Assembly: GCF_000002865.3 (NCBI RefSeq)
Contig: NW_001865063.1
Coordinates: 370,398-434,397, forward strand
DNA from: Monosiga brevicollis MX1
Taxonomy: Eukaryota; Opisthokonta; Choanoflagellata; Craspedida; Salpingoecidae
Length of the DNA: 64,000 bases
Reading direction: 5' to 3'
The position numbers and the translations under genes were made by a program. Shown piece after piece: positions 18,913 through 64,000 of the stretch. The first letter of the stretch is position 1; each line of letters starts with the position of its first letter. Below the pieces are notes generated by a model. The model worked only from the letters and a program-made list of their open reading frames with translations. It was not told the DNA's origin and made no database searches.

Positions 18913-21900
18913 ATGGCAGACTCCGTACGCAGCCAGCTCCTGGAAATGGGCTATCCCACGGAGGACGTGGATCAGGCCATCCGTTCGGCCGGTCACGTCG
19001 AAACCCCCAGTGATGTGCTTGATGTGTACGTTGTGCTCGCATCGCCCCTAGCAGCCTCTTCGCATCAGTGCCTCACCGTGTCTTTCCCCGCCCTCCTCTT
19101 CCAGACTGGCCGGAATCGCTCGCTCACGATCCGAACATCAAGAGTTAGTCATGCTCCCACCCGCTCGTGTCGAACCCTCTTGCCCCTTGGGCTCCCGTTG
19201 TCGTCTGGCTGACATCTTTTGCTTTGACCGAATGGCCCGGTAATTAGACCGTACCTGGCCGTGGGCGAGGCCTGGTGCTGCGATCAGTGTCACACCATCA
19301 ACTCTGCCACAGCCTTCCCCTGCACCTCGTGCCAATACCCGCTCGTGGTAACCGATGCCATGAAGACGGCCCTGGGCTTCTTCGATGGCAACACATCCGG
19401 CACCTATGTCTCGCTGACCGCCCCGACGGCCCATCCGCGTCGTGAGCAGGACCGCCACCAGCATCTCACCGCCGCAGGGGATGCTGGAGCGCCGCATGCA
19501 GCCACCGATCAGGATAGCAACGCCCCACCACCACTCGTGCTCTCTCCCGATCATCACACGGGCACCGGTTCGTAGCAACAAGCTTCCACCTTGGTGCCCT
19601 CCTCCTGTCAGTCCACCTTTTCTGCCTCATCTCGACCCTGGCTGACCTCAACGCACCACATACAGGTGCCGTCTCTGTCCATGCCTTTCAGTGCCCCATG
19701 TGCTTTTTCGTGGGCGATCAGCCTCCCTGCATCCTTTGCACGTTTGACCCAAACACTGATGAGATGCCCCTGCAAGCCGACGAGCAGCAACAGCAACCGT
19801 CCGTCAGTTCTCTGTCGTACGTCATGCAGTCCTGACCCCCCCTGCCACTGCGGTCACCTCGGTTCCTCCTCACATCTGCTGAATCCATGGGCAGTGATGA
19901 TTTTGAGCTCTTGCAAATGGAGGTCGAGGCTCAAGCTAAGGTTGTTGGTTAGTTGATAGCTGGCTCCACCCACATTTCACTCTACTTGTGTATCATTATC
20001 TCACGCTCGCTGGTGCAGTCTTTGATACTGCCGCCGACACGGGTGCGGTATGCCTGGCCGAAGGCGGCTTTCGCTTTCGAGTCTACGCACCTCATGCCAC
20101 GCGCGTTGAAGTGGCCGGTGACTTTAACAAGTGAGTAGCGTACAGCAGAATCAAGGAGTGCCAGCCCTGGACCTTTAACCAGCTTGCTCAGGGCTTGCTC
20201 ATCGTGTCACTGCATCTTTGGTAGTTGGCATCCTGAAGCAACTGTCCTGTCCCGAGAGCACGACGGCCATTGGCGCGGCAATGTTCAAGAGGCACAAGCA
20301 GGTGTGGTTCATGACCCCACGTATCTTGCCAAGGCAACCCTGATGTGAATTGCCATCATGCCAACTCACCTTCCTTGCTTGCCGATCCATACCAGGCCAG
20401 CGCTACCGCTACCGTGTTCATTTCAAACGCAGCGCCCAAATGCCCTTGACTCCATCAGCCATCGATGTAAGCGCGTCACTTCTCGCGTGCTGCCCTGTCT
20501 CGAGTCATCTTGAGCTTATTTTTCCGCGCCCTTGGGTTGGTTTTTGCTTCCAATCCTACCAGCAACCCAAAAATACGGGCGGCACCATAGCTGCTTGGCG
20601 TTGCGACCCCCGTGCTCGTGTAAGTCTGCCCCCCCTGCCCGATATTTCAACTTGGCATCATATATCCTAGTTGGGCAAAGGGGAAAAAAAACCGGCGTGC
20701 TCAAAGTAAGGGCCAATCTTGCGGACTTGTTGAATAACGAGATGGATGTGATGGTGGACAGATTATCGAGCGAGATGCGTTTCAGCGTCGCCGATTCAAC
20801 GCCGTTCTTTACGACAACAGTGGCTTTACCTGGACGGTATGTCCATTGGCCGCAATACCGTCGATCGGCATACTGCTCTCTCTCTCTCTCTCCTGAAACG
20901 TGCATGGCTTCAGATTGGCTCATGTTTCAAACGCTGTGTCTGGGGGCAGGATGCCGGCTTTGAGCGCCCCAATTTGCAGGAACTTGTGTTGTGCGAAGTG
21001 CACGTTGCCTCCTTTTCCAGGTATCGAGCAGCACAATCGGTCTCTTCTTGAACTCGCATGTCTGTCCTCCCATCTCGTATCCGCTTACAACTGCATTGTG
21101 CGCCTCAACACAGTTCGGGCGATGCCATGGGCACCTTTGACAATGTGATTGAGCGTCTGGATTATCTGGTCGATCTGGGTGTCAACGGTCTGGCTCTCAT
21201 GCCCGTGTCCCAAGATTATCATCCCTGTGAGGAAGAGGACTTTCATTGTTGGGGGTAAGAAAGCACTCCAGCGAGCATGTGGTTCAAGTCAAATCGGGAT
21301 CCGGTCTCTGGCGCTCATCATGTCGTGTTTTGACTCAGGTACGATCCTCTGTCTCTTTTTGCTGTGCAAACAAGCTATGGCGGTCCGGATGGCCTGAAGC
21401 GTTTGGTGAACGAGGCCCACTTGCGTGGGATTGCGGTGGTCTTTGACTTTGTGCCCAACCACATGCATAATCGCAATGTTCTTCAATGGTTTGACGGCAC
21501 CAACCTGTACTTTGCCGATGGTGCGTTTCTGAGCCAAGCGCCCCTGTGACAGCCAAATTAATCATTCGCCATCACATCATGCTTTTTTGCCGTCGACGTT
21601 TCAATCCACAGAAACAACGGACTGGGGGCCGCGGCCGCAGTTTGATGATCCCGTGGTGCAAGATTACATTATCGACGCCGCAGTACGCATGCGACATTGC
21701 TTGGCGTGTTCGACGCACGGGCCAACCACGCCTAGCTCTTCAAGACCTCATCTTGCTCACCCACGCTGTTCAATGGCATAGCTCTCCTTTTTCCGTGATT
21801 TCCACATGGATGGCATTCGCGTGGACAGTACTCCCAACGTGCGCGGCATTGGCCGTGACTTGCCTGGTGGCTGGCAGCTATTGCAGGTCCGCGGCGCGTC

Positions 21901-24245
21901 CGCGCCACACGTGCTAAAACTTGCACGCGTAGCTGTCCGCGCTTTGCATGCGTTGTAGACTCTTGGGTTATCTCGTTCACCTTGAGATCTGGCATGTATA
22001 GGCGCTGAACGATGCCGTACACGAGCGTTATCCAGATGCATTTACCATTGCCGAGGATTTGTACGATGATCACCGCCTCAACACGGGCGGGGCTTGCTTT
22101 GACCTTCAGTGGTGCCAGGGCACCTTCAAGGTGTGTTCAACACGCTGATGCGTGAGCCCGGTCCTTTTTGCTTTCATGCAACAAGTATTTCGTCGGTTGT
22201 TAAGTCTTGTTGGGGTGAGAGCTCACCGTCGACATATCCTGCTGTGCCAGTCACTTTACCAAATTGCCACGGCCGTTGAGGACCGTACACGCGACTTGCA
22301 AGCCCTGGCCAGTACGTGTGGTCTTGCTTTTGCTCTTGCCCTTTGCCTTGCGCCTTTTGCCCAGGTCCAGTTTGTTTTCTTCCAACTTGATCCCTCTGCT
22401 GTTTCAACCGATATCAGATCATTTGGAGCACCCACATCCTGGGCCTATGGCTGGACGCATTCTTTTCACGGAAAACCACGACACCGTGCCCGGTGATCGC
22501 GAGCGGCGGATACCTTTGGCAATCACCCGTGGCGTGGCCGGCGTTGATCCACATCAAAACTTTTTTGCACAGCGTCGCACCACGGCCATTGCAGCGATCA
22601 TGTTGACGACACCGGGCGTCCCCATGCTCATGCAAGGACAAGAGCTTCTCGAGCTCAATTCACCCGTCTGGCCCGAAGGGCCAGCCATCGATTGGCACAA
22701 CCGTGTCAAAAACTTTGGCATCCATCGGTGCGTGTCCCAGCTATTGGTTTTACGCGTGGTTATTTAGCACGCACACCTCACAACCGACCACCATGCGTTG
22801 GTGGGTGTACGACAGCTTGTTCAAGGATATGATTGCGTTGCGCCGCAACCTCGAGGGCAAGACGCTGGGGCTGACGGCACCGAATGTTCGCGTTCATCAC
22901 TTGAATCCCGAGAATTCCATTATCGCCTATCATCGCTGGTCGCGTGTATGTATCTCCGTCAAGACCCCACATGTTACTGTCGCTTGCCTCTGCTTTTGCC
23001 TGCCTGTCTGCCAGCCTGCCTGTCTGCCAGCCTGCCTGTCTGCCGGCCTGTCTGTCTGTCTGTCTGTCTCCATCTGGATCTCATGAATGATTGTCGTACT
23101 TTGCGCAAATGCAGGGCGGCTGTGGTGACGATTGCATTGTGGTGGCCAATTTCTCCAACCAAAACTTCAGCTCGTACCGCCTCGGCTTCCCCCGTGACGG
23201 TATGTATAGTGCTTTGCCTTGATCTTATACGGCACACTGCGCGCAAATTTGATAGGAACTCTTGGCTACTACACGCGCAGGCGAGTGGCGTCTGCAGCTT
23301 GACACCTCTGATGACACGTACAGCGATCTGAATCTGGCAACACGGGAGGTCTTCCCAGTTGACAGCATTTTCGTCGACCACTACAATCCTCGAGATGGGT
23401 ACGCCAACAGCAAACTCATTGCAGTCAACTCTTTCGTTTGTTCCCATTCGATTCCGCTTATACTGTGCCGCCTCGCTTAATGTCACTGTGCTTTAGCTAC
23501 CCATTTTCTGGGGCCACACCCTTGCCACGCTATTCGGTGCTCATGTTTGCGCAGGTACGACCTGCAAGCACTGATTGCAGGCAATATCTGACCCTCCTCA
23601 TCAGGCGCCATTCAACTTATTAGGAGCCCATTGCGCGCCTCGTGTTTCGTGTGCAATACGAGACAGACTTTGGTGACCAAGTTTGCGTCTGCGGCAACCT
23701 GGAAGCCTTGGTACGCAGGGCATTATCACTACTGTTTTTTTTTTTAAATTTTTTTGCAGTCACCTTTGGCTAAAACACGGCACAATGTCTGACATGCGCT
23801 GCTGGTCCTCTTTTACGTCGTTCTTCCAGGGCTCATGGGAGCAGCCGGTGCCGCTCAACACCAACCTGGGTGACGCCCCAGTCAGTACTGCTTGCTGCCC
23901 TGGCAAATTGGTCTCGAGGGGCCATCGAGCTAGCATCTTTCAATACTCACCCATTGATGTATTTTGATAGTACCCTTGGTGGCAGAGCAATGAAATTATC
24001 GTGAGCGCCTACACACCACTTGAGTTCAAAATTGGTGAGTGTCGGAATTGGCGAAACCTGGTGGGCAGAGCTGATGATTTGTTGCGGAAGCTCTACCGCT
24101 GTTTGGCTTGCTTCTGACAAGAATGTGGTCACCGAACGAAATAGTTTTGCGCTGCGGCAATGGCGAGCTGGTTTGGGAGACCCGCGAAAACCGCACGCTG
24201 GTGGCTGGGCGGGGACGCCAGCTGGTCTTTTTGGGACGCAACTAA
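18913..24245 (+). CDS. UBA - RanBP2-type zinc finger - CBM48 - GH13 (branching-enzyme-like) - CBM20 fusion
   Basis: Twenty-six exons, from 18913..19025 to 24145..24245, keep phase at every junction and give 935 residues. Residues 1-45 form a UBA-type domain (LLEMGYPTEDVDQAI). Residues 60-79 match the RanBP2 zinc finger W-x-C-x2-C-x3-N-x6-C-x2-C exactly. A second C-x2-C...C-x2-C cluster lies at 167-182. CBM48 spans about 226-320 (RFRVYAPHATRVEVAGDFNN; QRYRYRVHF). GH13 follows with region I DFVPNH (455-460), nucleophile GIRVD518, acid/base IAE556D and stabiliser ENHD623. It ends with YSVLMFAQ. CBM20 fills 836-935 (VWETRENR). The catalytic part resembles alpha-1,4-glucan branching or trehalohydrolase-type GH13 acting on glycogen. 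No signal peptide is seen, so it is probably cytosolic. The N-terminal modules suggest ubiquitin-linked control of a glycogen enzyme (inference). Confidence 0.85.
22999..23070. repeat. Intronic CTGCCTGTCTGCCAGC tandem repeat
   Basis: A roughly 16-bp unit is repeated about three times, then decays into CTGT repeats. It lies within the intron between the exons ending at 22945 and starting at 23115 of the UBA-GH13 gene. Confidence 0.8.
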
Positions 24246-24674
24246 GAACGCCTTGCCAGAGCATCAGATTTGGGCTCGAGCCATCTCAAAGTTGGAACCG
24301 GTGACTTTTACACCATGTAGAGGCGAACAGCCGATTTGCTGTGAATGCTGATCGAGTGGAATCTTTTTCCATGTCAATAGTTGGTCTCCAAGTTTCGGTT
24401 GTTATTGTCGTGGGGTTTCGATTTTTGTTCTCTTGTAACGATGCACCTTCGAGTAACTACATGCTTGTGTCGGCTTCCGTGAGTTTTGATTAGAGTGCAG
24501 GCCAGCAACGGCCGATGTCGACGAGGTCAGGGATCAATTAAAAGGAAAAATGAAATGAGACTCAGTTTGGCAGAAAATTGCTGCGGTGGATGGTGTCGGG
24601 TGAGTGGGACGCCAAATAAAAATGAAAAGTACCCACGGGGCGCTATCGCCCATTGTTCATGTTTTGCCCGGCGG
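24246..24674. other. Intergenic region between convergent 3' ends
   Basis: No coding sequence is supported in this 430-bp spacer between two convergent genes. An AATAAA-like hexamer on the + strand at about 24615 could serve the GH13 transcript. Confidence 0.5.
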
Positions 24675-26774
24675 CTAGAGATTGTCTGGGGCAATCTCTA
24701 CGCTGCGGAGGCGCGGCGACATATCTGGTAGAGTTGAGCGCGCCGAATTTGCATCTGGATCAAAAGGCACGGTGCTACTCGCAGATACATGTGCACCCGG
24801 GGGAGCATATGTCCGCGGGCGCACCAAGGTAGCACCAGGCCGCGCCACGGCGCCGCTAATCGATGGGGCTGAGCTGACGATCTGGGGTATCACTGCATTG
24901 GGGAGGGGCCGGGACGTTGTGGTGGCGGGTGACAGGCCAGGCTGCAAGCGAGCTGCACCGAGCTGATTGAGCTGGCGGGCACTTGGCGCCTGATGTCGAT
25001 TGGGTGGGGCGGTGCTGGGCATCAGAAGACCATGGGGGTTGAGACTAGCTCCGACCGGCCCTTGACCCAGTCTGTGTGGGTGGCGCGTAGCGGGGTTGCC
25101 GTTGACATTGTATCCAGGGTGTGCTAGGGGGACGCCTGGCTCGCTGATGCGTGTGCTTATCCTGCCCATATTGCCGTGCTCATGACGGCCATGATGAAGG
25201 GGCTCGTTGCCCAGCTCATTGCCGTGGTGGTCGGTGTCGTCCTCCACGTCATCGTCGTCATCGTCATCGTCGTCATCCTCCTCCTCTTCCTCACCCTCGT
25301 CATCTTCGTCGTCGTCGTCGTCATCCTCATCGTCGTCACCACTGGCGTCATCCCGTGCATGGCTACCGGCGTAGATGTCCCCCCGTGCATCGAGAGCATC
25401 ATCGTCCGTGCCGGTGGCGCCGCCTGGGATGAAGGCATGCACTTGTGACCGTAGTTCATGGAGGAGCTGATCGGCTTGGTCCATGCGGTAGATGGTTTCC
25501 GTTTGCAAAGCCTGCAGGGCATTGACGTGGATGGTGACTTGCTTGTTGCAGCGTGCGAGGTGTTCCACGTGTTCCTCGGTCTTGCGCAGCAGAGCGAGGA
25601 CGCGGCCTTGTGGGGTGGTGAGGTCATATGTTAGAACGGCGCGACCTGCCGCGTTATGAAGGGGTTGGGGGTCGACCTGTTGAGCCACAACGGCATCTGA
25701 CGCGGCCTGGTCATGCTGCGCGGCCTGGAGCATGTGGTTAGCAGCAGGTAGGGCCATGGCACCGTAGGGGTCCAGGCGCGCACGCTTGGGGGCAGGCAGC
25801 GCAGCGACGGTGGCGTTGTTGTGGGTGGAAGCACTGGTGTCGGTTGGAAGTGGCGCAGCACTGAGTTCCAGGCTGGCGCCATCCTCAAAGGCCATGGCCC
25901 CCTCCATTCCCACGGGTTGGGTGGGCAGCAGGCGCTTGGGGTATGCCTCGATGGCGGGGCCACCGCTGACGGAAAAGGCCTGGGCGATGGGCGTGTTTTC
26001 GCGAGCGGAGGGCAATTTCATGGTGGAGATGATGGACCAGTCGAGTTTGAGCCAGGGGCAAATGTCCCGGCCCGGGCGCATGGTGTATCCAAAATGCTTC
26101 CAAACACCCTGAGAAGCACCGTACTGATGAGATGACGCCACGACATTTCTGTTCAGTCAGCAGCATTGTACCTGTGTGACGTAGGTGTGGCAGGCTTCAC
26201 AAAATACGCGAGTTCGGTCGGTGCGAAAGCCGATGCGTCGATTGCTGCCAGTGATGGTCACAGTGCGGAGGAGGTCAGGCAGCATGACGCTGTCCAGGCG
26301 GGCCTTGATGTCCATGCGTTGAAGCGCGGCCTTGACATCGTCTTTGCGTGCAATCTGTTGAAAATGCGCAGTCGTTTCAGAACGGTGAGCTGATGTCAAG
26401 TGCGGTGCAAAAAAAAAAAAAAAAAATAGAATGACGACCACCAACCTTGCGCTTGGGTAACTGGCCCACAATACCCAGCAAAAGAGCGTTGTGTGTGTGT
26501 GTGTGTGTGGTGGGTGACAGGCCGGTGCGATGAGTGATTGGTCATGGCAAAGGAGCACAGGCTCTCGGCTGCACGCACCGGTGGAGATTCGTCGCGCAGT
26601 GACTGAGCGGCTGGGGCAGGTTCATCGTTGACGTGTGCCGGCTGCACAGTCAGATGGGTAAAGCAAGTCACAAGTCAGGCCATGCGATGCAACGCTGCCA
26701 CGCGGACGCGCCACCAAAAAAAAAAAAAAAAACCAGATCAGACGTACCGCCGGCACGGCAGGTTCAAAGCTCAT
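24675..26774 (-). CDS. Acidic, nuclear-type protein with one Cys2-His motif
   Basis: Five minus-strand exons (26748..26774, 26579..26641, a 15-nt microexon 26446..26460, 26172..26354, 24675..26108) all join in phase 0 to give 573 residues starting MSFEPAVPA. The N-terminal third has a compact segment (LPDLLRTVTITGSNRRIGF ... VFCEACHTYVTQGVWKHFGY ... ICPWLKLDW). Its Cys-x2-Cys, Phe/Trp-x2-His and final hydrophobic strand recall SAND/TDBD-like DNA-binding folds; this is resemblance only. PKRARLDP could be a nuclear signal. A predicted helical/coiled-coil region follows, then a run of about 45 mostly Asp/Glu residues (coded around 25235-25345). The C-terminal tail is disordered and Pro/Asn/Arg-rich. 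Function unknown; a chromatin or transcription role is a guess. Confidence 0.65.
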
Positions 26775-40251: not shown

Positions 40252-41544
40252 TTAGCGGAGGACATCGAGCATGACACCGAGAAACTCGGGTACGGCAAAC
40301 ATGTCGGCGTGGCCACAGTTGTCTAGCTCGTGGAAGGTGACCCGCGGGCAGCAGTCACGCATGCGCTGGAAGCAAGCTTCATAAGACACGGTGTGGTCTT
40401 GCTTGCCCCAAATCACGTGTGCTTTTGCAGCACGATGGCGAGCCAGTGTTTCCTCGAGTTGTTCGTAGAGGGCTTCACAGCCGCCAAATGGAAAAGATTG
40501 AAGAGTATCAACCAGAGTGCTGCCAAATTCTGTCAAGCCAGGTAGCCGGCAGGACGAGGAGAGAAGCCAAAAGGTCGATGAGAGCAACGGGGATGACATT
40601 GTTATTGGGCAGATTGCATGCCATGGCTAAATACGCACCAGGGCGCGTGTCAAAGAGTTCACCGAGTCGCTCCTGGGCGGCAGCAACGGCCGCTAGGTTG
40701 GCCGGGTGCTCTTTCTGTTCAAAGCCTACCAAGGTCGATTGTGGGCGAGCGTCAACAGGAGCGTCAGCAGGCGAGACAAGTGCTGCGGGCCGACTTTAGC
40801 CTGAACTTTTTTTTTGGCTCATTCGAGGCGGTCCTTCAGAATGCTATGCTTGTTGAGCGCAGGGGCTGGGCCAGAAGGTGATTGCGGCGAGGGAGGCTGG
40901 TGCTCGGTTTTTGGGCGAACCTTCAATGATGTGTGATTGCATACTGCTGCGAGCAGCCAGATGAAAGAGGAGGTTGCCCAAGATTGGGGTCTGAACGATT
41001 TGCGCCGTGAGCGGCAGAGGAGAGGGCAGGCCGGCCGGGGCCACCAAAACCAGCTTTTGCAGCATGGTCGGGTGCAGGACGGCAAAGTTGGCAACGATCG
41101 GGCCACCCATGGAATAGCCGACAATGGTGAGGTCATGCGTGCTGCGGCCTCGGGTCTGGGGCGCCAAGTGAAAGAGGACATCAGAGATCTGGCTCGAGAA
41201 GATCTCGAGTGTGTTATGGTGGTTCTGCAGGTCGAGGGCAGCTGAGGCGCCACGACCGTACAGGTCGATGCTCACGGCGCCAGCGCCCGGCTGATCTGCC
41301 AGCAGCGTCTGCAAGATCTCATCGTAGATGGCTGCTTCCGTGGAAAAACCATGCACGCAGACATAAAAGGGTGCCGCCTCACGCAGGGTCGCGCCGCCAT
41401 ACAGCCAACAGGCCACCTAAACGGCAAAGCCGATCGATGATGAGATATGCGCGCATATGCATCGATCCATGCAAGCACATGCCATACCTCTCCAAAGCTG
41501 CACGGTAGGCGCAGCTCCACCCGTGCTTTTGCTGCTGTACTCAT
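40252..41544 (-). CDS. Alpha/beta-hydrolase fold protein
   Basis: Four minus-strand exons (41488..41544, 40921..41416, 40639..40725, 40252..40529) join in phase to give 305 residues from MSTAAKARVELR. The oxyanion segment VCVHGFS (38-44), nucleophile elbow GYSMGG (Ser121), acid WGKQDHTV (Asp258) and NCGHADMF (His287) form a complete Ser-Asp-His triad with normal spacing. The dialkyl-substrate family (esterase, lipase, C-C hydrolase, epoxide hydrolase) cannot be narrowed, but a Ser nucleophile excludes haloalkane dehalogenase or epoxide hydrolase chemistry. No signal peptide or TM is seen. Its 3' end faces the CSPP1-like gene across 175 bp. Confidence 0.85.
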
Positions 41545-42110: not shown

Positions 42111-44761
42111 CTATGGGAGGCGGGTCGGGGGTGTGAGCACGAGGTGGCGGATGCCGTGGGCCGGCACAGAGAGGGATAAGCTGGTATTGAAGATGCCCAG
42201 AGCACGATGCTGGAGAATGTCTCGGACAGCGTAGGGAGTGTTAGGGGACATGCCGGCCGCCGTAAAGTCGAGAGTGATTTGATCATCGACGGGGCTGCGG
42301 TTGAAGAGGATGGCCGTGTGGCGGTCCTCGCTGAGCGGACCTGCATACACTTCCAGCGTTTCTGCCAGCGTGAGGCACTGCTCCCCCAGCTGGTTTTGGA
42401 TGGTGCCGTCCCCACTCACTAGCATTTGTTGGCGTCGATGGTCGGTCGACCAGCCACACTTGTCCACCTCCACATGACTGCCCTACACTCGGATGCAACG
42501 CCGCCCGCCACCGGTTAAAACCAACGGGTGCAACCCAGTCAAGCTATCATATTGCATGCACCGTTCACACCTCTGCGTCCAGACAGCACGTGGCAAGGCC
42601 CGAGACAGTTGTTCCTGAGCTCGGCCAGCAGGAAGTGCCAGCCCCCATTGACTGAATGGTCTGATTCTCAGCATGAATCTATGATCAAAATCGTGAGACG
42701 AAAGCGCACTGCCGGGGAAGAATCCGGACGAACCCCCCCCCTCCCCTCAAGCACAAGCTCATAAGAATGTGTCCTCCAAACGTGCCTGCCATTGCTGAGC
42801 CGTGTAGGCGTTGCAACTGTCAGCGTGTGTAGTCTGTGAGGACTCATCGACGCAGTTTTCCACGGTGACCCACCAAGGCCAGGTGGTGGCACATGCATAG
42901 AGTGAAAGGCAACGACCATCTCCAGATCGAATCTGCACAGGAAGACGACTGAGATGAGATTGCAACAAAAAGGGGGTAACGCTGCACCACTGCGCCATCG
43001 AGCATTTGTGGTCCATTTCTGGACAAATTGCCAACAGACCTGCGTGCCATTGATGGACCACATTTGAAGTTGGCGTACAGGGTCATCCGATCGATGCGCA
43101 CACGGCGCCAGATAGACCTGATGGATCCCGTCAAAGCCAGTGAGCCACAAGCCCAGGCCAATGCCCAACGAAAAAGTGTTCAAAGAGCCTCAGCCTAGGG
43201 ACAGATGCACTGTGATGCCTCACTTTTGTGGCCGAGGAAAAAGATCGGCCCGGTGCGAGCGCCACACGGCGCACACTCTGACCCAGGTCATCTGTGTCCG
43301 GTTCCAGGCGTGAAGCACGTGTGATGATTCATGACTTTGCTTTGCAGCAGAGAGCTCTCTGCGTGTGCCAAGGCAACCCACCTTGATTGACGGCAATGAC
43401 CTCGGTATTGTTGAGAATGGCCAAAACCTGAGCAATGCGAAAGCATATGAGGCCCGCATCGTTGAGCGTTGAAAATCAAATGGCCCGGCATACCTCTGGG
43501 GCCATGGTGCGGACGTCATTGCCAAGTTGCAAGGGCGACTTGAAAGCAGCCCATAGCGAGAAGTGGGCCTGCCACTCGGTAATGTTCATGGCAGCTTGGC
43601 CGTGCCCATCGTTTCCATTGCCCACCTCCAGCATGTCGAGATCCTGGAAGAAGCCACTTTCGGGTCCCGTCACGTCCATGTAGCGTTGGTCGTTGGCCGT
43701 ATCCAGCACGCGCGTCATGTCTTCCCACGTGTTCTTGAGGTCTTTGGCCACGCGGCGAAATTGCGACTGGTAGCATACAAAGTTACACCCACTGAAGTGA
43801 GGAGCAGGAGGCAAACTCGTCGTGTCATGCCAGGGCAATACCCCGACTCGCCTGGGCAGACTCACCACATTGACGGCTTGCTGAGGGGTGAGATCAGGGG
43901 CCTTGACGTTGTGCAATATGGGTCGGGGCACTGCAGACAGTGCTTGCTCCATGGCGCCGTAATCATGAGCGGCATCTGCATAGACGACGCGACAGTCGTC
44001 GTTCTTGAGCCAGTCGGCACCGTACGCAGCAAAAGTGGCGGCATCCAGCGGCTCGTGGCCCAGACTACCCGGCATCTTGCCCCCACAAGTCAAGTTGCTC
44101 CGTGCCGTGTCTACATATCAAAAGCAGGGCCAAAGATGACGACGTCAAAGCCGGCACCAGTGGAGAGCAGGTGCGACACCGTGGGCTAGCCTCTCACACA
44201 AGCCGTAGAGAAAGCCGTTGGCATGGATGGCATCACCGAGCGCTTTCATTCCGGCGGGGAACTTGACAGGATCGCCGACAATGCAACCAGAAGCGTTGCG
44301 GTTCTGGGCACCCCACCCATCGTCCAAAGCAATCAGCGTATAGCCCTGAGCGGTAGCACCCGGGCATGAGAACAGCGCCTGAGGCCGCGGGGTCAGCCAT
44401 TGGGGCCCAAACGCACGGCATCCCGCAGTCCCGAATCGATGAGAGCTTGCATGATGGCCTCGATCAGCTTAGCATCAATGTTCTGGCCGTAGGCGTTCCA
44501 GGTGCTGTACGTGCGAGCGCGGTGTGTGGTGTGTGATATGTGCGCGTGTGTGGTGTGAGGCGTGCTCGAGTCAGCTTTTCATTGAGCGAGTGAGAACGAT
44601 TGGCTTGCGACGTACGAAAGGCCCAAAACGGGGCGCCGAGGGCGCTGGACATGGGCCTGAACCCCCCGAGGGACCCCATTCCCCAGCATCTGTATAAGAA
44701 CCACCACCGCCAGGCCCATGGAAGCGCACCATCGGGTGCGTCGCCGCTCTGTCCAGGCCAT
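42111..44761 (-). CDS. Secreted/lysosomal GH27 alpha-galactosidase with lectin-like insertion
   Basis: Ten minus-strand exons (44616..44761, 44417..44504, 44198..44345, 43866..44110, 43494..43766, 43382..43427, 43224..43291, 43040..43117, 42782..42932, 42111..42418) are in phase and give 516 residues. A signal sequence (CASMGLAVVVLIQMLG) starts the protein. The barrel then shows LSTWNAYG, ALDDGWGAQNRN, YGADWLKNDDC (nucleophile Asp165, aligned with KYDNC) and FFQDLDMLEVGN (acid/base Asp253). VIAVNQDDLGQ follows. A stretch at about 355-425 has a QMW and a QQW with CLSL/CLTL strands, resembling a beta-trefoil (ricin-B-type) lectin module. It sits before the C-terminal beta-sandwich (VYAGPLSEDRHTAILFNRS ... 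VRDILQH). The family hydrolyses terminal alpha-galactosides or N-acetylgalactosaminides. Specificity is not resolved. Confidence 0.88.
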
Positions 44762-55488: not shown

Positions 55489-58400
55489 CTAAACCACTCC
55501 ATAACCTACGAGCAAGCCGCCTGTTGGAACAAATCACCCCACCCGGTTCCAACAAAGGCGACCAAACAGAGACCGTGAGGACGAGCCCACAACAGCAGCA
55601 CAGACAACCCCATGAACGACGTACCTTCAGTGGCAACGTAAAAGCGGTGGTCTTCCTCGGCCACCGCAAGTGCTTGTATGCCGCAGATGCCTGTGTCTGG
55701 AACCGAGAAGTCTTGCATGACGTGACGTCCAGATACGCTCCAAAGCTCGTTCAGGTCATGGGCTCTGAGAATGGTGACACCGGCATCAGCGTTGCCCACT
55801 AACAGCCCACAGTCATTGGCCAGGTTGCGGTAGTTGATATAGGCCAATGCCGTTACTTTGCTTGGGCTCTTCCAGCTTGTGACTGATTCGCCGTTGATTG
55901 TCACAATTTCGACAGCTGCCGCCGGAGATGTTCCACCCTGCGCGCGCGCGCGACCCACAGCAATATCCCCGGTGATGGCTGAGACCGCAAGGGCTGTGAT
56001 CGTTTCATCTGGAGCCGTCAAGAGCACATGAAGTAGACTGAGTTGATGCAGATCCCAGATGAAGACCCGTCCGTCCTCGTCAGCGGTCACCACAACGCCA
56101 AATGACGTGCACATGGCAATGTGCACCATGGGTGCGCCTCGACCGTACAGAGATCCCATGTGCGCGAGTGAGACTTGGTTGTTTGCCACATGGAGTTGAA
56201 GCACGTGAACCACACCGGAAGCGCCGGCTAACGCGGCAAAGGCTCCACTGCTTGCCAGTGCACGCCCGCCATGATCATACCATGGTAAATTGCAGCCGGT
56301 TGGGTGGCCTCGTGCGTCCAACACGTGCAGGTTGCCATCCCAGCAGTCGGCATCCAATTGGAAAATTTGGCCATCCCGAAGTAAGGGGCAACGCAGGCGG
56401 CGATACACCTTAATCACGCGCCCGGGCAAGAAAGCGAGGTGATGTACATCTTTGTTGACGGTCCGACGCAAAATTTCACCAATGACCTTGCGTCCACCAA
56501 CGTGTGTCAGGTTCACGGGCCAATTGCACGCACTGGCCAACCGGCGAGGATGTGCGTTTTGAAAGAGCTGGATGGGTGTTTGTCCAAAGTGCTTGGCTGA
56601 ATCGAGTACTCTTTTCCGAAGGCTTGGGCTCTGCTCCTTCTCGAGGTCGACGACGCCCTCGTAGCTTGCGGCCACGAAAACATTGCTTGCTTCCACTGCT
56701 GCTGGCCCGCGCTGCTTGGTGCCAAAGATCAGGTCGATCCACTCATGAAGATGAGCCGACACGTAAGGTGACTCAAGGGCCCGCATTTGCAAGTAAACAA
56801 AAGTACGTGGTGAACCACCGGCCCAGGGCGGGAGACAGACATCTTCCAACACTTGGCCATCCTGTCGACGACCCAACTCGTAATGGTTGATATTGCGCAA
56901 AAATTCCGGCAAGGTAAAAAACTCAGGGATGAGCTCCTTGACGTCCGAAGAGGAGCGCTGCGTGCAATAAAAGGGTCGATGGGAGTAAAAAAAAAAGGTG
57001 CAGAGGAAGAAACAAAGAAAGGACATGAGCAAATTTTCAAGCTTAGAAAAAAAAAGTCACACAACCTCAAAGTCAAGAAGCTTTACATGGCAATCGTTTC
57101 TTTACTACTGTCCATGCCTTGAGACCAGCGTGCCGACGGGACATTTCGCAACAATGACAGGGTAAAAGGCTTTACCTCGGAGCAAGATAGCCAAGTATCG
57201 GCCATGTCATGGAACATGCGGTCAGGGATATCCAGTTTGCCACCTTGCAACTCGACAGCCAATTGCGTGAAAGGTTCCAACCTGAGCAAACACCAGTAAT
57301 TTCCACATGCTGACATGAAAAAACACCTTGCCACGCGCAAAAACACCACATGACCCCCAAACTTGAAATACTTTAATAACAAGGAGTCCAAGGCAAGAAT
57401 TTGAAGAGCAAGCACCACCTCATTGCGATCGCTTACCGTGACATGTAGAACAACACAGCGGCGGCCGACGAGTAATGTGTGCCGTACATGAACGGCATGG
57501 TGTTGATATCAGGTTCTTCACCCCGAAGATGTGCCATCTCCAGTTCCATCTCCCAATTTTCCTTCAGGTCTGCGTAGCGCCGCAAAATCGACTCCAAGCG
57601 TTGCTCGCCCAGGGCACCCATGGGTTTGCTCAAGTCACGAAATACCTCCTCATTCTGCAGATCGAGCCGCGCCGACGTGTAGTCTCTTAAAACGTGTGGC
57701 ATTACAGGGTACTGTGTCAGGTCGTTAAAAGTACGGCCGGCCAAGGTGTTGAGGTGCATGAGGTACTCAAAGTTTGAGATGTCTCCACGTATCCATTGCT
57801 GTGTGATGGCCGATCGTGGCTGACGATCGTTGCCCGAGACCCGGAACACGGATAGTTTGGGCGTGGCATCTGCGTCCTCTGATCCGTTGATTTCCATGAC
57901 TGTCAGCATGCACAGCGATGGCAGCTTCTGTTGCATAAGGCAGGTATGCGCTTCGCGGCAAAGCTGCGACGACCCAAAAGCCAGCATCAGAGTAACGCCC
58001 GAATCAAAGAAAATCTCCAATCCGACATGCTGAAGCAGGTAGCGCCGTCGTAGCACCTGCGTGATGCCTGCGTAGGGCCAGCAGGGCAGCTGATTGGGGT
58101 CGTGGGAAAGCGCAGCTAGTTCTTTGACTGAGCGCAATTGGGTGAGGCCGGGCGCCTTTTGCTGTGTACGATTGATCTGAAAGTAGAGATGGCGATCACC
58201 AAGAATCACCTCCCCGCTCAGAGATTCGTATGGAGTGACGATTTCGCAGGCCAAGACAGCCTGAACGCGCTCGTGGGGCTGCATGCTGCCCATGTTGTCC
58301 TCGGCGGCCTCTGGCACGTCCGTGCTCTCCGTAACAGTGCTGCGCGGGTCGATACTTGTACTGAGTCCGCCCTCGTTAACGTCAGTTCCAGGTGCAGCGG

Positions 58401-61400
58401 CATCATCGAGCGTGCCGGCGCCGCGGTGCTGATGATGCAGATAAGCCAGCGAATTTGCAGACACGGGGGCGAGGGCAGTGGGGCAGAGGAGCAGTGGTCG
58501 CAGTGTCAATGCCTCGGCACTGGATATTGCGCCAGCGTGGCCACGCTGCTCCACCAATGCGGCCAGCCCGCGCACATCCATCTGCCCTGCGCTGCAGGTC
58601 GGTAAATCTTCCATCGCTTCGACCAAATGCAGCAGCTTGGAGGCGGCTGCCAGCATAGGATCCTCTTGTGAAGCGTCAGTAGCCTCGTTGCCGAGCACTG
58701 ACGCACTGCTGCCAACATGTGCGAAAGGCCTTTCGAGCTCTGCTGTCTCCTCGTCCACGGGAGCTAAGCACGCCGTGCCTCGACGCAGGGTGCCTGCTGT
58801 CAAGGTCAGGGGGGTGTCTGGCTGAGGAGTGATGAGACTCAAGCCACTTGCAAAGCGAGTCGGGGTCTGAGTCAAGCTAGCCTCAAGTGACCAATTGCTA
58901 GTCATGGACTCGTTGACGAGCCGAGTATGCTCAAGTGCGTCATCATCAGGCGATTTAGCACTAGACGCGTTTGCTGCGTGCGTGGCCAGGGCCTCATCCG
59001 CGGCAGGGTTTCCTGGGTTCTCTTCCCAATAGTCATGGGCCCGATTGGCCATGTCCACGGCCACACGCAGGGGTTGCAGCTTGCGGCGCATGCGCAAGAG
59101 GCCCTCACGCGGGTCCAGCATCCACTTGCGCCCTTGTTCGGGCCGATACCAGATGCTGCCCGGCTGCTGAGCACGTTCCTCGATGCGATGCCAGAGGGTC
59201 TGGCACAAGTTGAGCTCATGGCTGTGGTTCGTCACGTGTTCCAGGTATGCCTTGCGATGCAAATCGGCCAACTGGAGTGCACGCGTGACCATGGCTGTGA
59301 GATGGGTTGTGATACGACGCTGACCAAGCAACACCTGTTCCACGCGCTCTGCTTCGTCTGCCGCGCGTGCCTCAAGCCAGTTTTTGCGTGCCAGCTCGAT
59401 TTCAGTCGAAAAGGTTTCGTTCTCCGTGAGACGGTAAAATTTGAGGTACCATCCACCCCGCGTGGCGCCTAGCCGCGAACCATCCAAATCCACGGCCCCC
59501 TGGAGGTTTGGCTTATGGTGGCGAATCACGTAGCGAAAGGCAAGCTCACACTTGTCAAGCATTACATCGATGCTATGAACTACGGCATCAGCATCAGGGC
59601 TTTTGTCAGGCAGATCAGGATCATCTCGTAGGCGGCGTAGACGATGATAGGCCGAGTGGAGCGATTTGAGCACGAGCACAAATGATGAGTCAAAGTGAAC
59701 GAGGCGAGCCCACAAGCTGCCACTGGCTGTCAGTTGATCGATGCCGAGACCAAGCTGCTGCAAGCGCTGCGGAAGTTTTTGCCAGATGGGCTCCTGCAGA
59801 GTGGCGTCCAACTCGCGATTGGGAAGGAGGTCTAGATGCAGTAGCCACAACAGAAGGCGCAGCAGCTGTTCACTTAGCATGCGTTCCACCACGCGGGCAT
59901 CAGCATACTGGGTTGAGTTTCGTGGCAGAGCGTGGCGTACGACACTGCTCGTCCCCAAACCAAGCAATGCGCGCACGTGATCAAGCATGTCCTGGAGCCA
60001 GCGGATCAGAAGCCAGACAAAGCCGTGATCCGAGAGGGTTGACCAGTTCTCGCGTAGCACATCGCTGACTACCATCCACGAGGCCTCATCACTATCAGGA
60101 CCGGAGGTCATGGGGTCGGAGGAGTCTGAGGCAAATGTTGCCGCCGCGGCCACAGTAGCGCAGGCTGCGGCCACTTCGGCGCTGTTTACGAGGCTAGTAT
60201 CAGGTAGCGTAGCTGCCACTCCCGAGTCGTAGAGGACAAGATCCACAGCCATACCACAGAGAGTCGCCACTGCTCCATGGAGTGGCACATGAGTAGCCTC
60301 CACTTTTGTCCCCCGCCCCGGCTGGCAGATGGCAGCTTGCATTTGATCCAACAAAGTCAGAAGCATTGAGCGCTGAAGGTGCTTGGCGTGCTCATGCGGC
60401 AGGCCCCACACAGTCAAACAGTTGATCATGCTCTCTAATCGAGCAAGACCCGTGGGTGCTGAGCGGGGTTGGAGCAACAGTGGGCCAACGTGAAGTGAGG
60501 AGAGCTCGGTTAAGAAGGTTTCGGCAACGATCAGCAGGGCTTTGCGGGCTGATAGAGAAAAGCAGCCCACGTGGCTAACTGCTGAGCTGGCCGGTGTCGA
60601 GGGCCGCGAACGCCACGAAGGCTGCTCGGCATGAGCTGCACTTGACGCAGCGGCGATTCTTGAATCGGGGTCCGGGTCGTTAGCCAGAAGGTCCGCGTCC
60701 AAACTAGCATTGGCAGTGGGCGATCCAGACTGCACATTCTCGCTGGGACTCGGGGGCTTGGAAGGAGCGCGCAAGGTTGCAATGGTCAAGATCTCGCACA
60801 GGACCGCGACAATATTTGCATTGAGCAGGGGCTCGCGTAGATCATCGCGCAGCCGCACGAGGTGAGTCAGTGTCCCTAAGGCTTCATGGCATAAGGTGGC
60901 ATCCGAGACCAAGTGTGCAAATAGTGCTGCAATCAGATGCGCTGCAGAGCCGGCGTCAGTTGCGCTCAAGGGCTGTGTGCCCTGCAGAGCGTGCTCGACT
61001 GGTTGACCGGCACTAGAACTCGTCGCAAACGATTGCAGATCCTCACGAGAGCTGCGATGTGAAGAAAAGCTGGGTCGGGAGGGGCTGTTTGCGGTCGATG
61101 GGACGCGCGACGCTGATGTCTTGGTCGAGGCGCTGCGGCGCAGGTCGACGCGTCCGATAAAGACATTCAGGGCGGCCATGAAGATGGGACGCGTAACAAC
61201 ATGCTCTGTGAGCTGCTTTGCCAAAACATGAAACCCCTCTGCGCGTCGAAAGAGCTTGGTGAAATTGGGGAGTCCGCGCTGCAGGCAAAATATGATCAAG
61301 CGCAAAACCATCAAACGCGTTGTGGAATCTTCGTGATCAGCCATGGCAAGAAGAGTGTCGGGAACGAAGATAATGTCCAGGTTTTCGCGAGACAGGACGT

Positions 61401-64000
61401 TGTCATCATATCCCGTGCGGCACAAGCAGTCTAGCACGAGAGACAGAAGACCTACGCGCACATCCACTGCGTCAGTCGGCCCGGGCGAATCTGTATTTGA
61501 GGGCTCAGAGGCGTCCTCCGTATTCCCTGCAGGGTTGGAGTCTACATTTCTGTATGGCTGGTCATGCGCGTCGACATGACGATCCGTGCTGCTTGTTGAT
61601 GATTGAGACAACAGAGGAAGTGGGGAGAGGCGGCGCCGCAAAAGAGTGGACTCGATGGGATCAACCATGGCTGCTTCGCCCGGCTGGCGGCTGGCAGGAG
61701 AATCGGGCTCAAAGTCGGAACCTTCCTCTGCGATGGCAGCAAAGGGCGAGTGCTGCGACCACCCCAAGTTTGAGCGTTTGATGCGACGTGGCGGGCTGCG
61801 TGCTTTGTCCGAAATAGCACCCAGACCAGCCATATCCGCATCAGGGGCAGTTCCTTTCTCAAAAGCCCCGGAAGGTGATGCCCACGAAGTGGTGCCTGAC
61901 TGCGGGAATGTAGCCCATGCCGATTATCAAGATGGCACAAGCAAAGCGTGAGTATCTGACGTGCCAACAGAAAAGGCGAAGAAAAGGAGTGGCAGAAAAC
62001 AGAGAAAAATGGTTGGATCCACAGTCAAGAACAGTAGCAAGGCATATCAGCTGCATGCCACATACCCTTTGGGCTCGTGGCGAGGGCGTTAAGAACGAGA
62101 GACGTCGCTGTGAATAGCCAGATGCAGGTTCATCTGCCTCGTCCTGATCCTTGTCATCCTTGGAAGATTTCTACAACACAAGCCACGTGCCCGGGCATGA
62201 GGCGCGAGGTGCATGAAGATGAGGTCAGCTGATGATGTGTCAAACAATACAGTCACTTGGGGCTCCTTCCCTTCTCACACCACCGCCACCACCGGGGAAA
62301 AGGGTGCCATGAAAGCGAGCTTCTACCCACCTTGGCCCGTTTCCAAAATGTGCCCTCTCGAATCTAAGGGATATGCATGCACATTTGGGCAATTTGGGCA
62401 TGAGTGCATAAGAATTGAAAATTTTGTGTTGAGCGGTCCAAGTACAGCCAGGCAATCACCACGGAAGCCGATCACACCTTGAGTTTTTGTGCTGGGTGGG
62501 TGGCGGTAAGAAAGTTGACGAGAGCGCGGAGATCCTCCACCAGCTCAGCTGGAGACTCCAAGATGATACCGCGGACGAGTTGAACATAGGCATGGGCAAG
62601 CTCTTGACTTTGAACTTGCGCTTTTGATTGCCACTCAAGAAGCAGGGCGTTTAAAAGGCCGGCACTCCTACATGGGCCCCAACATGTGAGATATGTACGG
62701 CCAAGAAGCAAAATGTCGTAAGTCGTGTGAGCTCACCGATACTGCATTGAGTTGAGGTGAGCAAAGGAGCACAAATCGCCATTGACAAGCCGAGCCAGCG
62801 CATGAACACGGTACAAGCGAACAGTATGAGGCGCACGGCGCCAAATGCGTGGCTGCATCAAGGTAAACTCCAACAGCGGAACGTTGCATACAACGGCTTC
62901 GCGATTGATCCAAAGGTCTTGGCCTGGGATGGATGGGCCCCCAAAAAAGGCAATGGCGGGTTGTTTAGTGATAAGCGGCGAGCAGATGTGCAGGCATGCG
63001 ATCTCAAGGCTTCATACCAATCGATTCCTTGTTTTGAGAGCCGCTGTAGTTGACGCAAAAGCGAAGTAGACAGCGCAAGAGGGCTTCTGTCAGTTCGCAG
63101 CGGGATGACGCCAAGAAGTGACCCAGAAGCCTGTAAACGTGCTCATTTTTGGACTGGTGCGCGAGGTGTGGATCCTGGCAGGCAATCAAAGGCAAGAGCA
63201 GTGTTGAACGTAAGCAAACAGGCCCATGACCAGCCAGCGTTGGCAGGTTGTGCAAACGTCCTATCAACGCACTTGTTCAACGACGGAGAGAATGGTTTCG
63301 ATCAGCTCAAGCTGATGCTCGCCTGAGGGTGCTGCATCAGCAAGCAAAAGTAAAAGTGCTTGAACGCCACTGAACTCCCCCAAGGCACGTAGCACGTCAC
63401 GGCGATCGCTGATAAGGGGCTGCAGACCAGCTGCCTGGTCCAGCAAAGTGCTCTTGGTGTCAGCTCCTTCATCGACTTCGACGGTTTCGCGCAGCGAATC
63501 GGTTTCCGAGAGCGTTTGTTCGCCTGCAGAAGCTTGGGTGCGAGCCCCTACACATTCGATTATTGAGTTAATGAAAAAGGAACGGCAAGGACGATGCAGT
63601 CGTTGAGCCTCGCAGCATGGGGTAAACAGAAAGGTACCCAAACCACTGACCAGTGTCACTCTGCGACCCGACGATCGAGGATGCGACAGATGTTGTGCGC
63701 GAAGCGAGCCTGTTGTCCTCTGAAATACCCACATTCATGATTTGATTTGAGGAGGCCTGGCGCTGAGAGTCCACGTGCAGAGCAGGACTAAACGGCAACA
63801 GCATTTTGTCTGTGTAAGACAACGCCCCCTCAAAACCTTCAGGTGCTCGTGTGAGTTGAAGGGCATTGCTTTGAAATGAAGCCCGTCGCGCCACAAGGGC
63901 TACATCCCGAGGCCAGTTGGTAGCTGATCGACTCCGACCCTGTCCATGCAAAGGAGAGGCCGAGGGTGTGGTCGAATCTTCATCTTGATTGGCGTGGCGC
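55489..64000 (-). CDS. LYST-like PH-BEACH-WD40 protein, C-terminal part (5' end beyond the window)
   Basis: Minus-strand exons 63651..64000 (edge), 63273..63547, 63018..63174, 62737..62867, 62478..62667, 62066..62170, 57437..61899 (4.5 kb), 57176..57281, 55625..56957 and 55489..55520. The N-terminal visible part is helical-repeat-like. A PH-BEACH-type segment (YESLSGEVILGDRHLYFQI) leads to the BEACH domain: NFEYLMHLNTLAGRTFNDL, DLSKPMGALGEQRLESIL, YGTHYSSAAAV, KLDIPDRMFHDMADTW, VKELIPEFFTLPEFL, VSAHLHEWIDLIFGTKQ and FGQTPIQLFQNAHPRR. A WD40 repeat region follows (DEDGRVFIWDLHQ). The IPDR..FH..TW and FGQTP.QLF wording is closest to LYST/LvsB-type BEACH proteins, which control lysosome-related organelle size and fusion. 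The terminal 32-nt exon (GGLLVGYGVV) closes in phase. Confidence 0.85.

Follow-up and report, generated by a model that had tools for sequence, protein, structure and literature searches.

A predicted GH13 enzyme of Monosiga brevicollis with a bacterial-type core, a putative ubiquitin/autophagy-type front end and a C-terminal CBM20

Does a single choanoflagellate gene join an α-glucan enzyme of family GH13 to modules of the ubiquitin and autophagy systems, and what kind of enzyme would it be? The question is raised by a locus of Monosiga brevicollis MX1, positions 18913-24245 (+ strand, as for all features of the gene given below) of a 64,000-nucleotide stretch, here called the window (contig NW_001865063.1, positions 370,398 to 434,397; assembly GCF_000002865.3). 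A preliminary description of the sequence presented a glycogen-branching-type enzyme fused to ubiquitin-binding-type modules and a CBM20, which could tether glycogen to ubiquitin signalling or selective autophagy. Our own reading, to which we assign a probability of roughly 0.4, is that the locus is one gene for a predicted GH13 α-glucan enzyme, in which a bacterial-type core is preceded by a ubiquitin/autophagy-type front end and followed by a CBM20.

The whole predicted gene runs from ATG to stop in 26 exons encoding 943 residues, with 25 introns, all GT-AG and 69-169 nt long, and a frame that is open throughout. An in-frame stop lies 12 nt ahead of the start codon, and poly(A)-signal-like words (ATTAAA at 24537 and AATAAA at 24615; 24537-24620) are found downstream of the stop codon. 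The model was assembled by hand and then checked by script. Its first version, of 959 residues, contained a 40-nt intron 18, which was dropped as it leaves 16 extra residues absent in all eight relatives aligned with the core (seven bacterial and one from a viral contig); moving the acceptor to 22815/22816 lengthens the intron to 88 nt and yields the 943-residue protein. A last exon beginning after the AG near 24117 was also rejected, its phase (worked out by hand) being wrong; the acceptor at 24144 preserves the CBM20. Apart from the one corrected boundary (acceptor 22816), the phase-coherent 26-exon structure proposed earlier holds, as does the order of the fusion: UBA-like stretch, RanBP2-type finger, second Cys4 cluster, acidic linker, CBM48, GH13, amylase C-terminal domain and CBM20. 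In the 943-residue protein, Pfam reports alpha-amylase, CBM48, CBM20 and Alpha-amylase_C above the cut-off, and UBA below it.

The bacterial-type core comprises residues 233-843, residue 843 being its last. It contains a CBM48 (residues 234-300, exons 6-8, 20019-20466; Pfam 2.2e-14), the GH13 barrel (exons 11-19, 20950-22945; Pfam alpha-amylase 2e-22, best stretch at residues 377-492) and an Alpha-amylase_C domain (residues 741-840, exons 19-22, 22816-23554; Pfam 3.4e-10). All three catalytic carboxylates are intact: D526 (at 21824), E564 (at 22053) and D631 (at 22480) stand within GIRVDS, TIAED and TENHD, align with the eight relatives and place the protein in GH13; they correspond to the D518, E556 and D623 numbered earlier, with a shift of eight. 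Region IV, however, reads ENHDT, as against ESHDE in all eight relatives, and therefore the reaction is not deducible from the sequence. No signal peptide was seen by eye, and the predicted location of the enzyme is probably cytosolic.

Behind the core, exons 23-26 (23624-24245) encode the CBM20 (residues 844-943; Pfam 1.3e-14), whose Pfam stretch at residues 850-933 reaches 54.1 bits against a cut-off of 23.3; like the CBM48, it was proposed in the preliminary description and is borne out above the cut-off. The module contains LGSW, YPWW and VWETRENR, which we take to provide the aromatic binding residues of CBM20. Its matches in the PDB include glucoamylase (1.1e-8) and, third of 21, STBD1 (8x8k, E 5.8e-6). 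A phase-0 intron coincides precisely with the border between core and CBM20, as would be expected of exon shuffling. A search of the genome with PF00686 gave no match, although the window CBM20, split over four exons, is present there. That both carbohydrate-binding modules bind glucan and that the GH13 domain acts on it is strongly implied by the families to which they are assigned.

The name given to the enzyme in the preliminary description did not survive. A second branching enzyme of the GlgB/GBE type would account for the GlgB models and GlgB structures being the best named matches, and for the CBM48-GH13-C layout and the catalytic triad common to the window enzyme, GlgB and eukaryotic GBE (GH13_9 and GH13_8). 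The best curated-family scores, computed on the 959-residue version, nevertheless amount to 193.5 bits for GlgB (cut-off 577), with TreZ close behind at 186.3, each about one third of the cut-off. In a maximum-likelihood tree of 30 sequences, the window core groups with its relatives (ultrafast bootstrap, UFBoot, 100; 98 for the other members without the window sequence), apart from three GlgBs, the genome's own branching enzyme and a large, probably TreZ-like group with NHDQ in region IV. Region IV likewise separates the window enzyme (ENHDT) from its eight relatives and the three GlgBs, all of which have SHDE. Given the curated-family score and the tree placement, the name GlgB/GBE was dropped; an ordinary second branching enzyme appears quite improbable, whereas a branching reaction carried out by the separate clade of the window enzyme is possible.

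The genome's own enzyme of the GH13_8 type lies elsewhere. With an approximate query of a fungal-type branching enzyme, the separate locus C55:404868-406781 is matched in eight pieces with 60-76% identity, and its frames carry motifs typical of branching enzymes from eukaryotes. Two phosphorylase loci were also found; together with the separate branching enzyme they indicate that glycogen metabolism exists in the cell; judged by sequence, the enzyme of the window comes on top of this ordinary metabolism. Three further GH13 loci are present in the genome (G000:C51:808594-810191, C56:657055-657345 and C30:308945-309067). The branching enzyme of a Desulfobacterales metagenome-assembled genome (L037; G001, C203:5797-6993) groups with the eukaryote-type one of M. 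brevicollis (UFBoot 100) and shares with it the motifs GFRFDG and SHDQALVGDK.

The core is assigned on sequence to an unclassified, mainly bacterial CBM48-GH13 clade, to members of which it is 33-40% identical and which stands apart from GlgB. The best full-length plasmid match is a Palleronia 'alpha-amylase family glycosyl hydrolase' (33.6% identity, E 1e-90). Among 297 genomes from the phylum of one Desulfobacterales metagenome-assembled genome, 215 have some match and five match closely (E 8e-98 to 4e-72; 37-40% identity in the genome search, 33-35% when 588-646 columns are compared by blastp), the next match being at 1.5e-38. Palleronia WP_317377136.1 and Catenovulum WP_268076729.1 align with the entire core (residues 233-843) from one end to the other and contain every catalytic motif; neither has the N-terminal 232 residues or the CBM20, and both have SHDE instead of NHDT in region IV. 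No characterised member of the clade turned up in the searches made here. A scan of a collection of genome contigs with the core found 14 stretches matching a pattern, one of which encoded a relative (weak and partial).

Viral contigs scanned with the window core gave no relative, and one was found with the Palleronia query; of the phage records, 60 had a match, with ten among the matches listed being 27-31% identical and two annotated, as a branching enzyme and as GlgX. On a 47-kb contig classed as viral (L022, IMGVR_UViG_3300025875_000772), a relative 53% identical to the Palleronia enzyme is located near the end. The unannotated neighbourhoods of the five bacterial relatives and the viral contig, compared by positions and first residues of their open reading frames, revealed no common operon, and the annotated Palleronia and Catenovulum neighbourhoods are unlike each other.

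Since the tree lacks an outgroup and places the window core on a long branch (1.02), we can only infer a transfer from bacteria, which is most likely the source of the core. The affiliation with a mainly bacterial clade might also be expected of bacterial contamination or a chimeric assembly. Yet the core is interrupted by many spliceosomal-type introns and lies inside a 655-kb contig, beside BEACH-domain sequence, and such an artefact is extremely improbable.

Whether the front end and the enzyme form one protein is decided at intron 4 (19817-19894), where reading of the frame reveals a TGA at 19833 and an ATG at 19887. These would allow two adjacent genes: the first, for a small UBA/zinc-finger protein, would stop at TGA 19833-19835, and the second, for a CBM48-GH13-CBM20 enzyme, would start at ATG 19887 (MGSDDFELL...). 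Both codons are in the modelled frame and flank a 51-nt gap at the exon 4/5 joint. Moreover, the donors of introns 2, 4 and 5 score 3.15, 3.64 and 3.86 bits, as compared with at least 4.98 for 19 of the 20 core donors, and 41 of 401 background GT sites score as high as donor 4 or higher. A gap of 51 nt between stop and ATG is, on the other hand, very short for a 3' end and a promoter, and neither AATAAA nor ATTAAA occurs within it, while both are found downstream of 24245. Intron 4 is of normal length (78 nt) and joins exons 4 and 5 in phase; its donor is GTACGT, and of the eleven GTACG words between 18001 and 25000, seven serve as donors in the model, that of intron 4 included. A branch-like CTCAC lies 25 nt ahead of its acceptor. 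Taken together, these observations make one gene highly probable and two genes distinctly unlikely. In either model the enzyme retains DDFELL, a motif resembling an LC3-interacting region (LIR); in the two-gene model it would lack any ubiquitin-type module.

The front end of the single predicted protein (residues 1-232) has no counterpart in the eight relatives, which begin at or near the CBM48, and no second copy of it was found elsewhere in the genome at E<=1. In the modelled frame, exons 1-5 together have a coding bias of +0.21 bits/codon, while the two remaining forward frames give -0.44 and -0.54; taken by itself, exon 2 has none (-0.08 bits/codon). Exons 1-2 (18913-19143) encode a stretch (residues 1-51) with MGY at residues 12-14, situated in a loop. 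Residues 1-52 alone score 20.1 bits (E 6e-4) with Pfam UBA, and none of ten shuffles matched the model; since the score is under the cut-off of 22.4 bits, the stretch is named UBA-like. Exon 3 (19248-19567) encodes a RanBP2-type finger at 19273-19341 (W60 to P82), together with a linker of low complexity. The spacing W-x-C-x2-C-x3-N-x6-C-x2-C is present from W60 to C79. Residues 1-226 have 15 PDB matches, of which 14 are RanBP2/NZF fingers (best E 0.012), those of Nup153 being the closest.

A second Cys4 cluster, C-x2-C-x8-C-x2-C (19686-19739), is located in exon 4 (19666-19816) and resembles NZF fingers. The top two of its eight PDB matches are the NZF of RBCK1/HOIL-1 (E 0.10 and 0.11); viral and RecR chains come next. 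Ubiquitin-binding NZF fingers are characterized by a Thr-Phe pair and a hydrophobic residue; in an approximate alignment of our own, Phe-Phe and Leu take these places in the second cluster. The likeness to HOIL-1 is a weak but suggestive lead, which is of interest because HOIL-1 attaches ubiquitin to glucans in vitro: a passage of PMC9016349 describes its activity on glycogen and maltoheptaose.

Exon 5 (19895-19947) contributes the acidic linker ahead of the CBM48, SSLSDDFELLQMEVE, with the LIR-like DDFELL at residues 209-214 (19896-19913). This candidate ATG8-binding motif is not mentioned in the preliminary description and adds to its autophagy idea. It is identical to the LC3-binding motif of FAM134B, as given in parts of three papers: DDFELL (PMC6526285), within GDDFELLDQ in a LIR table (PMC5538626) and within DDFELLD (PMC12431859). 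The protein contains a single instance of the strict LIR pattern [DE][DE][WFY]xx[LIV]. A PDB search with the LIR stretch gave no match. The genome encodes ATG8, and IBR domains of RING-between-RING (RBR) ligases are found at four places in it.

How might these parts work together? In the scenario we propose, a CBM48-GH13-C core would have been taken from bacteria, eukaryotic modules (the UBA-like stretch, two RanBP2/NZF-type fingers and the acidic linker with its LIR-like motif) would have been added in front, and the CBM20 behind. CBM20 and CBM48 would hold the enzyme on glycogen, the UBA and/or the fingers could bring it to ubiquitin-marked glucan or to a glycogen-bound protein, the GH13 domain would trim or rearrange the glucan there, and DDFELL may pass the complex to ATG8. 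We hypothesize that the front end couples the enzyme to ubiquitin, and perhaps to ATG8, because three modules, each scoring below threshold, and a short motif agree in theme; ubiquitin binding, ATG8 binding, the reaction and a role in glycogen turnover are all things that we infer. The fullest version of the proposal, in which this one polypeptide would both read and remodel ubiquitylated glycogen and deliver it to ATG8 via a FAM134B-type LIR, is rather doubtful.

A single fused enzyme could also carry a front end with another purpose, such as RNA or Ran-type binding, dimerisation or regulation, and a DDFELL present by chance. Several results speak for this or count against the coupling to ubiquitin. 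All scores of the front-end modules are below the cut-offs: in the whole 943-residue protein, Pfam UBA (residues 8-30) falls to 14.9 bits (E 0.025; cut-off 22.4); the first finger scores 12.9 bits with RanBP (cut-off 27, E 0.068) and is outranked by the unrelated model DmmA-like_C (E 0.0059, also below the cut-off); and for the second cluster Pfam lists RecR_ZnF alone (E 0.078) and not RanBP. Residues 1-52 have no PDB match at E<=10. The UBA and the RanBP2-type finger of the preliminary description are therefore retained as a weak match that withstood shuffling and as an exact spacing with fitting PDB neighbours, respectively, but not as Pfam domains. The first finger lacks the Thr-Phe pair of ubiquitin-binding NZF fingers, as had been pointed out, and is nearest to those of Nup153, which bind Ran. 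The LIR pattern is loose and common in shuffles, its strict form appearing at least once in 26% of the whole-protein and 4% of the N-terminal shuffles. Finally, deletion of the NZF from Sharpin increased amylose binding according to the part of PMC9016349 dealing with it, and an NZF is therefore not expected to bind glucan itself. What opposes this alternative is the common theme of the hints (a UBA-like stretch containing MGY, a second cluster that resembles NZF fingers and a LIR-like motif) and the exact FAM134B hexamer, found in 1 of 20,000 whole-protein shuffles, though picked after the fact. We consider another purpose of the front end well conceivable, at somewhat less than even odds.

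A fusion read as a glucan enzyme with ubiquitin-type modules can be compared with three known systems. To our knowledge, STBD1, the animal glycophagy receptor, has no enzyme, CBM48, UBA or zinc finger, all of which (the UBA as a UBA-like stretch) the window protein adds. Receptors of the p62/NBR1 type in selective autophagy combine a UBA and a LIR; the window protein is predicted to have a UBA-like stretch and a LIR-like motif in one chain as well, but no PB1 or ZZ domain was seen in it, and glucan-binding and enzyme domains are found instead. With STBD1 it shares a C-terminal CBM20 preceded by an ATG8-binding motif (a putative one here; for STBD1 the arrangement is described in PMC12785236), whereas STBD1 has an N-terminal hydrophobic anchor. 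The third system is LUBAC (HOIL-1, HOIP and Sharpin), which has NZF-type fingers, accompanied by a UBA in HOIP, and a link to glucan: passages of PMC9016349 report that amylose is bound by full-length HOIP and Sharpin, but not by HOIL-1. LUBAC is a ligase complex, while the window protein has no RBR domain and carries a glucan-active-type enzyme.

Around the gene, the window contains a BEACH-domain gene (55509-61923, - strand), with PH_BEACH and both Beach-domain halves in two adjacent open frames, an exon of an alpha-galactosidase A-like gene (43479-44117, - strand; Melibiase_2, E 2.4e-17) and an alpha/beta-hydrolase exon (40850-41416, - strand; Hydrolase_4, E 1.5e-14). Convergent with the studied gene is an open frame of 493 residues that contains a long acidic tract of Asp and Glu (24678-26156, - strand), for which Pfam gave no match at 1e-5. 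The genome as a whole has 146 PDZ matches, in keeping with a holozoan; a three-PDZ, DLG-like stretch in it matches the solved chain 6x1p of mbDLG, a name that points to M. brevicollis, at only 65 bits, a low score for the same species unless the stretch is a paralogue.

The order of domains is likely, but not proven, to be novel. A text search of the literature found no protein with this order, and the passages on the link between ubiquitin and glycogen in PMC9016349 and PMC13270118 name no single-chain protein that is both ubiquitin-binding and glucan-active. Of two surveys of gene transfer into choanoflagellates, neither has 'amylase' or 'glycogen' in its main text; a passage of one mentions thirteen acquired glycoside hydrolases, the families of which are unnamed there. 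Ubiquitin on glycogen in tissues is reported in a portion of a 2026 review (PMC13270118), and the gene, if real, is a specific candidate for reading these marks; its host may be a relative of animals that is amenable to experiment. The gene would also exemplify how a bacterial-type enzyme, apparently acquired, is integrated into eukaryotic biology via exons added at both ends. If the proposal is true in a unicellular holozoan, it would suggest that the coupling of ubiquitin and glycogen is not limited to animals.

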